From: a virus
IMG/VR virus record: IMGVR_UViG_3300027896_000061
Location: 1 to 50,498 of that record
DNA length: 50,498 bases
Reading direction: 5' to 3' (one strand)
The stretch's first letter is position 1. Each line of letters opens with the position of its first letter. Below the pieces are notes generated by a model. The model worked only from the letters and a program-made list of their open reading frames with translations, made no database searches and had not been told where the DNA came from. Positions 6,170-46,030 of the stretch are shown here, piece by piece. The translations under genes were made by a program, and so were the position numbers.

Positions 6170-7135
6170 TCATGTGTTACCTATGTAAAGTAACCTCGGG
6201 TCCATCCCACTTCGGCTTTCGCCGCCGTTTCCGTTCGTGGTCTGGCACATATCTTCATCCATTAAGGATGCGCCCTGTTTGTGCTCTACACCTTCCCGAT
6301 TGCTCGGTATTGGCTCGGTATTACCTCGCTCTTTGAGCAGGGGCTTCACCGAATTTAAGGCGTGTTTGCCATTCGATTGCTCTGAATGGACGGCGATATT
6401 GACGATTGGCATATCGCAATAAGTAAGACTATCATGACAAGTCTTGCAGAGAGTAAGGCCATTCTCTATATCGAAACGCTTTTCTAGATACATGGCAAAT
6501 GACAAAATGTGGTGAGCGTGTAAATAACCACCTTTACGCTTGCACTCTTGGCAAGTATAATTGTCTCTCTCAAAAACAGATACCTGCCACATTTTGTATT
6601 TTGTAGAATTACGAATCTTTCTATTCTCCGGGGTTATACCACCCTTCCATCGGTAACTCTTTTCTCCGCGATGAGCCGCACCTATCTTTTCCCGGTGTTC
6701 CTCAGAAAATGTTTTACCAAAGGTGTGATGATTCTCACCGCGATATGTTTCACTTCTCCATTTACCGGAACATTCCCTAGAACAGAAATTTGCCTTTCCC
6801 CGTTCAACGTCATAAATAAAAGCCTCGAACTCTTTTCTGCAAATTCCACAAACCTGAGTTGTTCGCCGTTGCTTATATTCATAACCACATTTGTAAGAGC
6901 AAAATCTTGCACCGCCGCGACCGTATTCAGAACTATAAGCAACAAACGATTTTCCACAGGCCATGCAATAATACTGAGACTTGCCACCGTGCCAACAAGG
7001 ATTGTCCTTGCCGACCTGTTGCTTCGCCATGAATTTTCCCTTACATGGTTTAGAGCAAAAGATATTCTTGGCCGACCCATAACGGTATCCAAGAAATTCC
7101 TTACCGCAGGTCGCGCAAGTCAAGTTTTGTGGCAC
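6170..7135 (-). CDS. HNH homing endonuclease with zinc fingers; 3' end reads into a group I intron core
   Basis: The start is GTG 7135, with AAAGGA seven bases upstream. The N-terminal 120 residues of this 321-aa product hold repeated C-x2-C ... C-x3-C zinc-finger units. A NUMOD3-like S-E-E-H-R-E-K-I-G segment follows, then W-K-G-G-I-T-P-E-N, then the nuclease (C-Q-E-C...L-H-A-H-H-I...N-G-L-T-L-C-K-T-C-H). The last 75 or so residues (from about 247) do not look like protein: they are the translation of intron helices P3-P9. The final eight, R-L-L-Y-I-G-N-T, copy the capsid C-terminus R-L-V-Y-I-A-N-T. The enzyme should cut an intron-less capsid allele and promote its own transfer. Confidence 0.9.
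   Translation of the reverse strand: MPQNLTCATCGKEFLGYRYGSAKNIFCSKPCKGKFMAKQQVGKDNPCWHGGKSQYYCMACGKSFVAYSSEYGRGGARFCSYKCGYEYKQRRTTQVCGICRKEFEAFIYDVERGKANFCSRECSGKWRSETYRGENHHTFGKTFSEEHREKIGAAHRGEKSYRWKGGITPENRKIRNSTKYKMWQVSVFERDNYTCQECKRKGGYLHAHHILSFAMYLEKRFDIENGLTLCKTCHDSLTYCDMPIVNIAVHSEQSNGKHALNSVKPLLKERGNTEPIPSNREGVEHKQGASLMDEDMCQTTNGNGGESRSGMDPRLLYIGNT
6194..6362 (-). ncRNA. Group I intron catalytic core (P3-P8 and a P9-like hairpin)
   Basis: Reading the minus-strand RNA, the canonical helices occur in order. P3 CGCCUU (6362-6357) pairs with AGGGCG (6276-6271). P4 is UUCGGU/ACCGAG near 6348-6353 and 6315-6319. P5 GCUC-aaa-GAGC is at 6338-6328. P6 CCGA-GCAA-UCGG, with a GNRA loop, is at 6307-6296. 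P7 GCACA (6284-6280) pairs with UGUGC (6249-6245). P8 CAUCC/GGAUG is at 6270-6256. J8/7 is AAGAUA. A P9-like CGGC-GAAA-GCCG hairpin is at 6224-6213. The order and the R- and S-like segments are diagnostic of group I introns. The last intron base is probably G at 6194. Confidence 0.85.
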
Positions 7136-7176
7136 TCGTAAGTCCTTTATTCTCAGGTATTTGCGATGTAAACCAA
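6194..7176 (-). other. Candidate complete group I intron in the capsid gene 3' end
   Basis: Group I introns leave a U at the 5' exon end and end in G. Joining the capsid codon CGU (ending at 7177) to UUA at 6193 keeps the capsid frame. It gives G-R-L-L-Y-I-G-N-T-stop in place of the unspliced G-R-L-V-Y-I-A-N-T-stop. Splicing would thus leave capsid length unchanged. I could not find a convincing internal guide sequence (P1) near 7176, so the 5' part may instead have been replaced by recombination, leaving a dead intron and a free-standing endonuclease. Confidence 0.4.
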
Positions 7177-8097
7177 ACGTCCGTCACCGAACCCGTAGGA
7201 GAACGCCTGATGCCCAAGCACGATGGTGTCGATGGAGTTATCCGAAGCATCCTTCGTCAGAATGTCCGGTTCAGCCAGCGTGAAGCACTTAAGGTCGTAC
7301 CGCGAGTCTCCGACCGCCGCAACGCCCCATGCCGTCGTGGAGGACAACCTGCGATAAACGTAAGGCTCAAACCGGCCCTCCCAGAAGTTCATCGTGTTGG
7401 AAATTTCCCAGGGCTTACCAGTTGACCGACCAAGTTCCGCCACTCTCACCTTGAGAGAAGGATGATGGTAAAGAACCATGCCCTTGGTGTTGACAAAGAA
7501 AATTGCGCCCTGGTCATCCTTGAGCGTGTCGAAATAAAGCTCAGCCGCCGTGACAGCCGCGAGGCTCAGGTCAGCCGAACCGAGGTTGGAATAGGTGGAA
7601 CCCGCGTCATCAAGGCAGGAGTGCAGGGCATAGCCAAGCACAAAAGCATCGTAGCCCACGTTGATTTCCCTGCCGCCCCTCGAAACAGATGAAGTGGGGG
7701 CATTAAACAGCCGCGCCAACTCGACATCTTTAGTCTCGTCGAGCTTCATGCGGAGGCTGGTCGTCCAAGACTTCACCAAATCCCATTGGTTAGTCTTCTT
7801 CATCATCCAAGAAACGCGGAAGCCCATGCCGTATTCGTTCTGATACCAGTCAAGCGTCCCGCCGAACTTCGGGTCATAGAGGGGAACCTTGCCCGACTCG
7901 ACAACGTAGTTGCCGTAGGGCATACCGGCCATCCTCATGCCTCTCTCGAACAGCTTGTCGCTCGTCTTCATCTTATAGAGTTTCTCAGACTCCATAAGGG
8001 CGTCGCGCTTCGTATTGTCGAATACGTCACGAACCAAGCGCCTGAAGACATCTTTACCAGAACTAGTATCCCATACTGTCAAAATTGGTGATGCCAT
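7153..8097 (-). CDS. Major capsid protein
   Basis: A 314-aa product downstream of portal, scaffold and decoration-type genes, in the order expected for a head module. It has no signal or membrane segment. The N-terminal half is helical and charged (V-F-R-R-L-V-R-D-V-F), with an extended middle segment. A C-terminal A-F-S-Y-G-F-G-D-G-R-L-V-Y-I motif resembles the end of HK97-fold capsid proteins in environmental podoviruses. Assignment is by size, gene order and overall style, not by a catalytic motif. The final codons are duplicated beyond the homing endonuclease (6170-6193). Confidence 0.85.
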   Translation of the reverse strand: MASPILTVWDTSSGKDVFRRLVRDVFDNTKRDALMESEKLYKMKTSDKLFERGMRMAGMPYGNYVVESGKVPLYDPKFGGTLDWYQNEYGMGFRVSWMMKKTNQWDLVKSWTTSLRMKLDETKDVELARLFNAPTSSVSRGGREINVGYDAFVLGYALHSCLDDAGSTYSNLGSADLSLAAVTAAELYFDTLKDDQGAIFFVNTKGMVLYHHPSLKVRVAELGRSTGKPWEISNTMNFWEGRFEPYVYRRLSSTTAWGVAAVGDSRYDLKCFTLAEPDILTKDASDNSIDTIVLGHQAFSYGFGDGRLVYIANT

Positions 8098-10305: not shown

Positions 10306-12483
10306 TTATTGCATTGGCGGAGGATTCATGCCTGGGGGCGGTCCCTGCGGTGGACGAGGTGCGCCCATCGGCGGCATTCCCTGTTGAGGTGGCCTACCGG
10401 GGGGCCCCTGCGGTCCACCACCATGCGGCGGAGGGCCACCTTGAGGCGGCCCACCAGGACCAGGGGGGCCACCCTGCCCCATGCCCGGAGGCGGCATCTG
10501 GGGGGGCGGTGGAGGCTGAAGTGCCTTCATTAAATCCACGCTCTTGCCAATATCCGGCACCAGCGTATCGCTATCGCGCTTGCCCATGTCGTCCAAGAAC
10601 TCGCGGAGCAAACGACCACCCTGTATCGCCACGTCCATCAAGAACTTCTTGAAGTCGGGCGGCACCATCGGGTTAAGGATGGTCTGAACCATACCCGCCA
10701 ACTTCGTATCATAATCGCTCAACATCTGGTAGGCGATAAGGTTATTCTCGCGCCGCGTCTCGGTGTTCTGTAGCTCGCTCGAAGCCATAAGTTCGATACC
10801 AACGGCGTCACGCAGGAACTCGAAGGGGAAGTCCATCGTCTGCTCTTGCATCGCGCCCTTGTCGCCAGCCGTATAGTAGGTGTACTTGGGCTGGTATTGG
10901 GCCATCATCATCGCGGCCTTCATGCCGATCTCGCCAAAGCGGTCGCGCATATTATCGTTACCGAACTTGAACTTCTTATTCATCTCCTGTTGGAGCTGGT
11001 ATGTCTCTCGGGCGACGGGTCGTTCAGCCGTTGGCAAGCCAAGGGCCGACGGGCCGATGCCCAATGCCTGTTGCATATAGTCCGTGATTATCTTTTCCTC
11101 TGTGAAGGTTGAGGTGTAAACATCAGGGAATTCGAGGAATTTGACACAGTTTTCAAGGTCGTCGCTCGTTACCTTGACGAGTCCTGGGGCAAGTCGGAAG
11201 TCTTGCTCAAGTCCTGAACCCTCTCGTACCAGAACCATCGGGGCGTTGATTTGGTCAAGTTTGTCGAGGCGGGCGTTATGAAGGTTGTCGAGTTCTTCTT
11301 GGAGTTTTTCAAGGATTTCGCAGGTGCCTTCACCTTCGATGCTGAACTCTCTTGGAGCATAACGCAGAGCCACGAAAGGTCTGAAGCCATAAAATAGCGG
11401 GTTATAGATGGCTCTAAGTATGGTTTTGGTTTTGAGATGAAACGTAACAACGATGTCGTCTTCTTCGCCGTCTTCGTCAACATCATATCGGAGCCACAGT
11501 TCCCACACTTCGTACTTGTCTTTTTCTTCACTCTTGACCTCGATGCCCTTGCTGTCTGCCCGACTAATCTTGGTCTGGTCTATCTGGTCGGGAGCCGAAA
11601 TCTCATCATACGCCTTTCCGTCATACAGCCCCTGCAATACTCGCGCCTTGATCTCGGGCTTCCTGAGATACACCCTATGACCGCAGAACAGGCAATCGTC
11701 AAGGTTCGTGGCGTCAGACGAGTAAACGAAGTCCTCGCGGCTGATGGGCATAACGTCCGGCCCATTATAGTGCGTCATCACCTTCTTGATGCCGTACTGC
11801 CCGTTCTTAAACTTGAACAGGCCGGGGTCTTTCTGTGACACTTCGGCAGGTGACGCATATCGGTAATTTGTCCTGTTGCGCTGGACATAGGACAACTTAA
11901 CGAAACTCGTCCCCGTCTTGATGGCTTGCATGGTTGGCGAGAACAACTTGTCCTTGAGGTGGGCAACATCCTTCTGCCACCAATCAAGGGCGTCCTCTAA
12001 CTGCTTAGCCGTGTCGATATAGTCGGCCTTACGCGCCTCACAGATAAAGAGCTTCTTCTGTCCCCATGCGTTGTCGAATATCCTGACAACGATGGCATCG
12101 GTTACGATGCGCGTTTCAGGGATGGCGCAGTTATTGACCCCGAGGTAGGGATATGCCTTCTCGCGCTTCTTACCGCTATACTGCTTATCCCAAATGGCTA
12201 GTTTATCAACGAGGCGTGATTGATTGTCTAGTTCCTGCTGAAGCCACTTGGCGAGGTTGAGGGATAGTTCATCGCGGAGGTTGCCCCCCTCTTTCATCTC
12301 TCGGTCGAGATTGATGGGCAATTCCCCGACAAACCCGTTAATATCCCCCTTGTAGATATCGGGGGCGTCTATGTCTTCGTCTGTAGACGAGTTAATCTGA
12401 TCGTCGGGGGAGCCGCCGATGGGCGCGCCAGGGCGGTGTGTTTGGTTTGGGTCTGTCCCCGACTTCTTTTTTCTTTTTGCCAA
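10306..12483 (-). CDS. Portal protein
   Basis: The start is a TTG at 12483 with AAGGA nine bases upstream; no ATG in frame fits better. The 725-aa length is that of P22-type portals. The central region has the long helical wing and stem segments of portals (W-L-Q-Q-E-L-D-N-Q-S-R-L-V-D-K and E-L-D-N-L-H-N-A-R-L-D-K-L-D). A Q-Q-E-M-N-K-K-F stretch corresponds to the crown/barrel helix region. The last 70 residues are an extreme Pro/Gly/Gln-rich tail (M-P-P-P-G-M-G-Q-G-G-P-P), unusual for a portal and probably disordered in the capsid interior. It forms the dodecameric DNA channel at the head vertex. Confidence 0.9.
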   Translation of the reverse strand: MAKRKKKSGTDPNQTHRPGAPIGGSPDDQINSSTDEDIDAPDIYKGDINGFVGELPINLDREMKEGGNLRDELSLNLAKWLQQELDNQSRLVDKLAIWDKQYSGKKREKAYPYLGVNNCAIPETRIVTDAIVVRIFDNAWGQKKLFICEARKADYIDTAKQLEDALDWWQKDVAHLKDKLFSPTMQAIKTGTSFVKLSYVQRNRTNYRYASPAEVSQKDPGLFKFKNGQYGIKKVMTHYNGPDVMPISREDFVYSSDATNLDDCLFCGHRVYLRKPEIKARVLQGLYDGKAYDEISAPDQIDQTKISRADSKGIEVKSEEKDKYEVWELWLRYDVDEDGEEDDIVVTFHLKTKTILRAIYNPLFYGFRPFVALRYAPREFSIEGEGTCEILEKLQEELDNLHNARLDKLDQINAPMVLVREGSGLEQDFRLAPGLVKVTSDDLENCVKFLEFPDVYTSTFTEEKIITDYMQQALGIGPSALGLPTAERPVARETYQLQQEMNKKFKFGNDNMRDRFGEIGMKAAMMMAQYQPKYTYYTAGDKGAMQEQTMDFPFEFLRDAVGIELMASSELQNTETRRENNLIAYQMLSDYDTKLAGMVQTILNPMVPPDFKKFLMDVAIQGGRLLREFLDDMGKRDSDTLVPDIGKSVDLMKALQPPPPPQMPPPGMGQGGPPGPGGPPQGGPPPHGGGPQGPPGRPPQQGMPPMGAPRPPQGPPPGMNPPPMQ

Positions 12484-12556
12484 TCTTTTTATCCTTGGTC
12501 CTCATGCCGACAAAGACTTCCTTGGAGGGGGAAGTATCCCATCCTGTTAGGGGCAT
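12392..12556 (-). CDS. Doubtful small basic ORF overlapping the portal start
   Basis: An open frame of 54 codons from ATG 12556, which overlaps the stop of the HNH gene, and running 92 bp into the portal gene. The first 30 residues are Lys-rich. They show a loose likeness (S-P-x-K...V-F-V-G-M-R) to the C-terminus of the 49-aa protein at 13122-13271, on the other side of the HNH insertion. It may be residue from the insertion event rather than a gene. Confidence 0.25.
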   Translation of the reverse strand: MPLTGWDTSPSKEVFVGMRTKDKKIGKKKKEVGDRPKPNTPPWRAHRRLPRRSD

Positions 12557-13125
12557 TATGCTAATCCATGTAATTGCATGTGACAGATATAATGTAGGCA
12601 TGAACCATTTTCCAGGTCATATCTTTTTTCTGGAAACCTACTCCACGCCTCTAGATGATGAGCCGATAACTTTCCACCGCGAACACCACACATCTGACAG
12701 GTGTAGTTAAACTTTCTTAGAACAGACTTTCGCCACTGTAAATACTGATAATCCTGTCCCCGGCTGTCTTTAGCTATACCGCCCTTCCAATTCCAATGAT
12801 TAGCACCAAGATGTAGGGGCGGCCTATTTCCCCGGCTCTTAATCAGGTCACTCTGTCTGTCCTTGAAGTCTTGGTCGTTCTTAAGTTTCCCGCCAATCCA
12901 TTTGGCCTTACAGCGTCTATCACAGAAATGGTATTTTCCCTTTCCCCAATAAGACGGCTCCCTGATAATTGGGTTCCCACAGAAGTCACACTTGCCACTT
13001 ATTTTATCTGTGCGATGGGGATTATCAACCCTGGAATTATGGCCAGATACAAACCTTCTAGTTCGTCCCCTAGAATCCTTATCCTCGAAGACTTGACCAC
13101 AACCGCAGGGACAAGTTAAAGTCAT
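12556..13125 (-). CDS. HNH homing endonuclease
   Basis: A 189-aa product starting at ATG 13125, overlapping the preceding small gene as ATGA. The N-terminus carries C-P-C-G-C-G-Q-V-F and a C-x2-C...C-x3-C zinc finger (C-D-F-C-G-N-P ... F-C-D-R-R-C). The nuclease core is W-K-G-G-I, Y-T-C-Q-M-C-G-V-R-G-G-K-L-S-A-H-H-L, then L-E-N-G-S-C-L-H-Y-I-C-H. In the last part N-G-x-x-L-C-x-x-C-H has become N-G-S-C-L-H-Y-I-C-H, so the second zinc-binding pair is altered. It sits between a small conserved-type gene and the portal gene, a classic free-standing homing site. Confidence 0.85.
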   Translation of the reverse strand: MTLTCPCGCGQVFEDKDSRGRTRRFVSGHNSRVDNPHRTDKISGKCDFCGNPIIREPSYWGKGKYHFCDRRCKAKWIGGKLKNDQDFKDRQSDLIKSRGNRPPLHLGANHWNWKGGIAKDSRGQDYQYLQWRKSVLRKFNYTCQMCGVRGGKLSAHHLEAWSRFPEKRYDLENGSCLHYICHMQLHGLA

Positions 13126-45370: not shown

Positions 45371-46030
45371 CTATCCTCTGCCTAGCGTTATTTCCCTATG
45401 ACAATCCGTACATAGGGTCATTCCGTTGGATACGTCATATCTTAATTCCCGGGAATCTTTCCAGGAAACCTTGTGGTGAGCATTAAGTTTTTTCCCGGGT
45501 TGTCCACAAATTAAGCATATGTAAGAGTCTCTTTTCCAAACCGCCTTACGCCATTCTTTATATTGAGGGCTTGTTCTCAATTTTACGTTTTCTGGAGTTA
45601 TTCCACCCTTCCAACATGGATGCAGACATCCCACTAGGCCATTGTTTTTACCGAGAAGTGCAATCGATATCTTGCGTTTACATTCATCTGAAAGTGGCCG
45701 ACCCTTAAATGCCGCACTCAATTTATCTCGTGTTTCCTGGGACACGATTCTACCCCTATGAGATAGACTAAGGAGTTTTCGCGTTTCCTCGGAAGGATGT
45801 TTCCCGAGATTAGCCAATCTTAGTTTTTCCTTGGTTTCAGCGGACTTGGGAATGCCCCTCTTAGAAAGGCTAATTTTTAATCTAGTCTCCTCCGTCTGGG
45901 GATGACCAATGCGGTGTTTCCCCAAGCCGGAAAGAGAGATTTTCATTCTGTGTTCCGGGGAAAACCTTCTGCCTTGCAGAGTAATACTAATTTTTTTCTT
46001 AGTTTCCTCTGTAAGACGATGTCCGGACAA
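45371..46030 (-). CDS. HNH homing endonuclease with six NUMOD3-like repeats
   Basis: The start is TTG 46030 with AAGGAG upstream. The first 130 residues of the 219-aa product consist of tandem NUMOD3-like units (T-E-E-T-K-K-K-I-S-I, S-P-E-H-R-M-K-I-S-L, T-E-E-T-R-L-K-I-S-L and others). W-K-G-G-I-T-P-E-N and the nuclease (C-L-I-C-G-Q-P-G, N-A-H-H-K-V-S-W, N-G-M-T-L-C-T-D-C-H) follow. It sits between a beta-rich virion gene and the nozzle-like gene. Confidence 0.93.
   Translation of the reverse strand: MSGHRLTEETKKKISITLQGRRFSPEHRMKISLSGLGKHRIGHPQTEETRLKISLSKRGIPKSAETKEKLRLANLGKHPSEETRKLLSLSHRGRIVSQETRDKLSAAFKGRPLSDECKRKISIALLGKNNGLVGCLHPCWKGGITPENVKLRTSPQYKEWRKAVWKRDSYICLICGQPGKKLNAHHKVSWKDSRELRYDVSNGMTLCTDCHREITLGRG

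Follow-up and report, generated by a model that had tools for sequence, protein, structure and literature searches.

The window, that is, the whole of the analysed IMG/VR virus record (50,498 bases), is proposed to carry on its minus strand a mobile, IC3-like group I intron, which lies between a GGU (Gly) and a GAC (Asp) codon, ten codons before the stop of a probable capsid gene, and which contains a built-in copy of the exon, with splicing not being needed for the protein. This reading is assigned a probability of roughly 0.7. It is an open question by what means mobile introns persist in essential genes with high expression, for instance those encoding capsid proteins, and very efficient splicing is the answer usually given. 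The present element suggests another route, in which a working replacement of the interrupted end is carried along, so that a failure to splice would be harmless. The locus thereby brings together three phenomena that are usually treated apart, namely group I introns, C-terminal hybrid genes without introns, and HNH insertions in phages (as in ShiLan), and offers one concrete, testable case with defined splice sites.

The host gene and the ribozyme core

The minus strand carries a portal-like gene (phrog_1216; 10306-12483) and, downstream of it, small genes, a 314-aa gene (8097-7153) and then an HNH gene (7135-6170). The 314-aa gene is regarded as the probable major capsid protein gene. As the AlphaFold model of its product, based on two sequences, reached a pLDDT of 29.7, this assignment rests on gene order and on a weak match to Pfam Phage_capsid_4 (21.2 bits versus a cut-off of 27). 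Its predicted 5' exon (7186..8097) comprises codons 1-304 and ends in ...GFG, with the 5' splice site placed after U7186. An intronless homologue, 61% identical to the window capsid, was identified in sequence L004, and scans of IMG/VR and GTDB returned no further capsid relatives. Comparison with an insertion-free relative, as proposed in the first-pass annotation, was thus performed with this single relative, in which the frame is continuous across the insertion site (GFG|DPRLAYCLST*) and no covariance model match was obtained.

The first-pass annotation had described helices P3 to P8 (P6 with a GNRA loop), J8/7 AAGAUA and a GNRA-capped P9, in this order on the minus strand, and all were located at 6362-6207. 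It had also proposed an Infernal search with the Rfam model, which bore the intron out only in part: no match was observed in the whole window at gathering thresholds, and at a permissive threshold RF00028 aligned to 6414-6242 (minus strand) with 23.1 bits (E 0.0022; gathering threshold 50). In view of this sub-threshold score, a custom model was made. A sensitive blastn search of 6450-6165 against phage records revealed short conserved blocks in four phage introns, i.e. a Rhizobium phage reductase intron, huge-phage and Gordonia phage tRNA introns and an Agrobacterium phage tRNA-Leu intron, the window intron being a distant blastn relative of L015, L016 and L017. A search from the Agrobacterium intron retrieved further tRNA introns as well as an intron in the capsid gene of a Pelagibacter phage. 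The model, designated R1, was derived from an alignment (A5) of five phage tRNA-type (IC3-like) introns with the window sequence excluded; L018, L014 and L020 were omitted because extra sequence adjoins their P7, and L018 and L014 carry RF00028 matches. R1 returned a single match in the window, at 6366-6203 (minus strand; 112.4 bits, E 1.4e-30), covering all 186 model positions and ending at G6203, with a score that falls inside the span seen for viral IC3-like introns at 80 or more loci. L004, L008, L010 and L013 gave no R1 match; L013, which had been selected by a P7-pattern scan, represents a helicase gene and was discarded as a false positive.

Based on the sequence and an alignment of six introns, the catalytic core P3-P9 extends over 6207..6362 and comprises P3 (6362-6357/6276-6271), P4 (6353-6348/6319-6314), P5, P6 with a GCAA loop, P7 (6286, 6284-6280/6249-6244), P8 (6269-6257) and P9 (6240-6207, with a GAAA (GNRA) loop, L9), so that a P3-P8 core with the guanosine-binding site of P7 and with J8/7 is present. 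P1, the P2 hairpin CCAUUC/GAAUGG (6369..6389, minus strand) with its GCAA (GNRA) loop, and the guide sequence at 6396-6391 were absent from the first-pass annotation. Covariation was assessed in all six introns for 26 pairs belonging to P3, P4, P7, P8 and P9: 97.4% of 155 cells were paired, as opposed to at most 42.6% with slid partners, and 14 of the 26 pairs were altered on both sides, which was equalled in none of 500 shuffles. In P7, the window reads GCACA/UGUGC versus GACUN/NAGUC in the other introns, amounting to three adjacent compensated pairs that are found in the window only, and the guanosine-binding G-C pair and the bulged A are conserved. Judged by these sequence comparisons, the group I intron at this locus is real and structurally complete. 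The probability that HNH-coding sequence resembles a ribozyme by chance, with no real one present, is considered negligible: the Rfam score under the gathering threshold and an HNH frame that is open throughout would fit such a coincidence, but the R1 E-value and the three unique compensated P7 pairs argue strongly against it. Homology to tRNA introns, GNRA loops in L2 and L9, a compact P5-P6 and the absence of P7.1/P7.2 agree with subgroup IC3 (tRNA-type), a label that follows general features of the subgroup rather than a subgroup-specific model.

Splice sites and the duplicated gene end

In the relatives, 4-5 nt separate the P9 3' strand from the intron end (UAAG|, GACAG|, UAUG| and GAUG|), which places the 3' splice site of the window at 6203|6202 (GUGG-GAUG|GACCCGAGG). 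The last R1 position is a G in 85 of the 86 matches compared and corresponds in the window to G6203 (model position 186), the terminal G of the predicted intron. The 5' site was sought as a U with a partner beside P2, and such a pair was observed between U7186 and G6394 within the helix CGGU|GA/UCGCCG. The internal guide sequence UCGCCG (6391..6396, minus strand) is located 1 nt 5' of P2, and its UC could also pair with the GA of the 3' exon (P10). The P1 5' strand and its extension (7172..7189, minus strand) contribute CGGU|GA/UCGCCG, GACG/CGUC and UUGGU/GCCAA, with the 3' strand of the extension (6397..6410, minus strand) lying past an internal loop in the duplex fold. At -20.5 kcal/mol, the extended P1 duplex ranked first among 973 windows of the capsid gene, the runner-up at 7450 reaching -20.2, and shuffling of either strand attained -20.5 in 0.18-0.28% of trials (0.0018 and 0.0028). 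The short P1 by itself was equalled at 15 of 234 U residues, and the U.G pairing alone constitutes moderate evidence. Sister introns L051, L104 and L035 display GCC at the guide position beside P2, and GGU or a similar triplet precedes the intron in L051 and L104, the exon ends having been read by eye.

The supported junction is therefore GGU(7186)|GAC(6202), corresponding to a phase 0, IC3-like intron of 983 nt (6203..7185, minus strand) as delimited by R1 and the extended P1 helix. On this evidence, an intron with splice sites at 7186|7185 and 6203|6202 is very probable, and the intron is probably able to splice at present. A splice at U7172, for which a 10-bp pairing had been taken as evidence, was rejected because no 3' site fits it; this pairing is now assigned to upper P1. 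A perfect 7-bp hairpin (GCGAUAU/AUAUCGC) at 6417-6393 (minus strand) overlaps the guide sequence, which it would hide, and could switch against P1, with predicted energies of -6.6 kcal/mol for the hairpin versus -8.0 for P1.

A different junction, CGU(7177)|UUA(6193), had been put forward in the first-pass annotation. It maintains the frame and has a U before the intron and a G at its end, yet it is very improbable: U7177 lacks a P1 involving the guide sequence next to P2, G6194 is positioned 13 nt past P9 as opposed to the 4-5 nt of the relatives, R1 ends at 6203, and GACCCGAG, upstream of 6194, matches the L004 exon.

The same annotation had reported a duplication of the capsid C-terminus, which is genuine, albeit with homology that begins at the D two codons before RLLYIGNT. 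The 5' copy forms the first 33 nt of the intron (7153..7185, minus strand), is in frame with the capsid gene and reads GAC GGA CGT TTG GTT TAC ATC GCA AAT ACC TGA (DGRLVYIANT-stop). The 3' exon (6170..6202, minus strand), which begins right after the last R1 position and also represents the end of the HNH frame, reads GAC CCG AGG TTA CTT TAC ATA GGT AAC ACA TGA (DPRLLYIGNT-stop). The corresponding end in L004 is GAC CCG AGA TTG GCG TAT TGC CTG TCC ACC TAA (DPRLAYCLST*), with GAC CCG AG and D-P-R common to the 3' exon. The two window copies align with a BLOSUM62 score of 37, a value reached in none of 1000 shuffles of 7152-6000 (maximum 27).

Synonymous sites of the two copies are nearly saturated (pS 0.89) when compared with non-synonymous sites (pN 0.23), over only 10 codons, and twelve random substitutions retained 7 of the 10 residues in 0.08% of trials (P 0.0008). 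The pS and pN values bear the signature of purifying selection, and either both copies would have been translated over time or one was derived from a diverged relative. The sequence directly 3' of the 5' copy (AATAAAGGACTT..., 7152-7119) resembles the capsid 3' flank of L004 (shuffle p 0.0055), and no resemblance to that flank was detected after the 3' copy (p 0.41). An L004-like flank behind the 5' copy fits insertion of the element behind an intact native end, and either copy may be the native one.

Unspliced and spliced messages are predicted to encode capsid products of the same length, 314 aa, ending in DGRLVYIANT and DPRLLYIGNT, respectively; the first-pass annotation had likewise anticipated equal lengths. 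Given these equal products, splicing would seem to be optional as far as the probable capsid protein is concerned, and it is somewhat probable that a functional protein can dispense with it. If the intron were instead an ordinary obligate one, the spliced RNA would be the true message for the capsid, and the 5' copy, having arisen as a side effect of homing or of P1/P10 pairing, would have no coding role. Such an intron would have its splice sites and frame intact, as here, and likeness of an intron's 5' end to the 3' exon is described as frequent (PMC11855218). Guide pairing, however, accounts for a few nucleotides at most and not for 33, and the differences between the copies are mostly synonymous, with amino acids and stop retained at the above P of 0.0008, so that this explanation is considered distinctly unlikely.

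The HNH reading frame and proposed working of the element

The HNH homing-endonuclease ORF (6170..7135, minus strand; 321 aa) begins with GTG and resides in the P1 loop, with a probable ribosome-binding site, AAAGGA (7143..7148, minus strand), 7 nt from this start. Both an HNH motif (residues 195-237; 31.2 bits, cut-off 21.4) and a NUMOD3 module (residues 129-151; 25 bits, cut-off 20.4) were identified above the curated Pfam cut-offs, and the product matched phrog_1271 (1.2e-29). As read in the first-pass annotation, no stop interrupts this frame across the core; it continues into the 3' exon, although the known domain ends at 6425, and the chance of an open frame across the core was estimated by shuffling at 2.9%. 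Extension of an intron ORF into core sequence has been termed 'core creep' (PMC3073962), and on its sequence the window HNH frame is an instance thereof. Most group I introns possess an in-frame stop immediately past the 5' junction (PMC3073962), whereas in the window the stop appears only after a complete substitute end. Two further HNH genes, at 12556-13125 and 45371-46030 (minus strand), are 33% and 45% identical over aligned parts to the HNH of the intron; one is adjacent to the portal gene and the other is situated among small genes, with no R1 match nearby.

In the optional-splicing reading given at the outset, the ribozyme would remove the intron, yet the capsid protein would be independent of its removal, and even in a heavily expressed gene poor splicing would then cost little. 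On unspliced RNA, capsid translation would cross the 5' site and stop in the copy, yielding the full-length DGRLVYIANT protein; spliced RNA would yield the other full-length isoform, DPRLLYIGNT. The HNH endonuclease would be translated from unspliced RNA via its own AAAGGA/GTG and would carry the intron into alleles that lack it, for example of the L004 type. A ribosome within the copy would melt P1, by which translation may bias the choice between splicing and retention of the unspliced message, and the 7-bp hairpin at 6417-6393 could compete with P1. The anatomy, homology, covariation and reading frames of the element are shown by the sequence analysis, and we infer from there that the intron is spliced, that the two isoforms are both produced and that the endonuclease is active in homing. 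A more tentative proposal, for which our confidence is low, is that the intron no longer depends on being spliced out, having evolved or captured a translated stand-in for the downstream exon, that both isoforms enter virions and that the balance between splicing and endonuclease production is set by ribosomes translating into the copy, the sequence that forms P1.

Comparison with known systems and related introns

The nearest known arrangement is that of Tremella mitochondrial introns, whose 5' end encodes a counterpart of the exon behind them; by RT-PCR, one proved to be a real intron, three persisted in the cDNA and two, lying downstream, were not spliced (PMC7315562). Those are elements of fungal mitochondria, whereas in the window the gene belongs to a phage, the copy measures 33 nt and includes a stop, and an IC3-like ribozyme with assigned splice sites is present. 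Mitochondrial mORF hybrids of Allomyces, Glomus, Rhizopus and Mortierella show the order gene end, stop, endonuclease and second end, with strongly diverged copies (PMC3630166). The window exhibits the same order, its endonuclease ORF being flanked by two diverged gene ends, but its copies are separated by a complete group I core, whereas the hybrids have no intron there.

These systems suggest an alternative in which an endonuclease cassette left two capsid ends, of which only the upstream one is used, with a dead ribozyme and the 3' copy as a relic. The gene order matches that of the Allomyces/Glomus hybrids (PMC3630166) and of the Tremella 'introns' that were unspliced by RT-PCR (PMC7315562), the 5' copy retains an L004-like 3' flank, and the hairpin can mask the guide sequence. 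Nevertheless, the described fungal hybrids are without a ribozyme between their copies, whereas the core is complete here, and the compensated P7 changes, extended P1 and terminal G, together with a 3' copy that is still readable as a capsid end, make this alternative unlikely, if somewhat less so than the obligate intron. The first-pass annotation had left two options, namely a built-in copy with optional splicing or a dead intron following a homing event. With core, P1, guide sequence and terminal G in place, the built-in copy is favoured, since P7 was rebuilt by compensatory changes that would be needless in a dead intron.

Among phages, ShiLan offers a partial parallel: the HNH insertion in its DNA methylase gene opens with 11 residues similar to the 11 that follow the insertion site (PMC11855218). 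Unlike in the window, no ribozyme was detected in ShiLan, and its copy lacks a stop and is read through in frame. Mycobacteriophage LittleE carries an HNH-bearing group I intron in its major capsid gene, with splicing shown by RT-PCR (PMC3706429), and its unspliced reading frame stops early (PMC11855218). It resembles the window in having an HNH intron in a capsid gene, a U before the 5' site and a G at the intron end, and differs in its HNH gene on the opposite strand and in the absence of a duplicated capsid end. No phage intron combining a defined ribozyme with such an exon copy was found in the literature; the arrangement as such is already published for fungal mitochondria, and its occurrence in a phage gene with a defined ribozyme appears to be new.

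The capsid intron of Pelagibacter phage HTVC120P and the tRNA-Leu introns L017 and L019 share the core, P9 and the GAUG| or UAUG| end with the window intron, but possess neither an ORF in P1 nor a duplicated exon, both of which are present in the window. To survey related introns, a 25-base core pattern was used, by which at least 80 IMG/VR loci (L025-L104) were retrieved, all with an R1 match and most in tRNA genes. Among the matches listed, which comprise 81 other introns (65 tRNA-like and 16 other), none displayed a second exon copy running from the first 3'-exon residue to the stop; the useful sample is small, since tRNA introns are unable to show such a copy, and some of the 16 others may not interrupt protein genes.

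In HTVC120P (MH598807.1, 461-1458), the capsid is annotated as two proteins that are split by an ORF-less IC3-like intron of ~200 nt, the removal of which would give ...FP-V-MGRTVAAY, with the GAUG| end restoring CCC GT|A ATG GGA; a similar intron was observed in L055 from IMG/VR. In Gordonia phage Daredevil (NC_048021.1, 1260-1590), an apparent tRNA gene is split by a group I intron; the locus is unannotated in the record, was missed by ARAGORN and gave no Rfam match at E 1. Finally, the intron of a huge-phage tRNA gene, apparently tRNA-Leu (LR756511.1, 1240-1600), has in its P6 region an HNH ORF that continues directly into the core; here too, as read from the sequence, an endonuclease frame and a ribozyme overlap.
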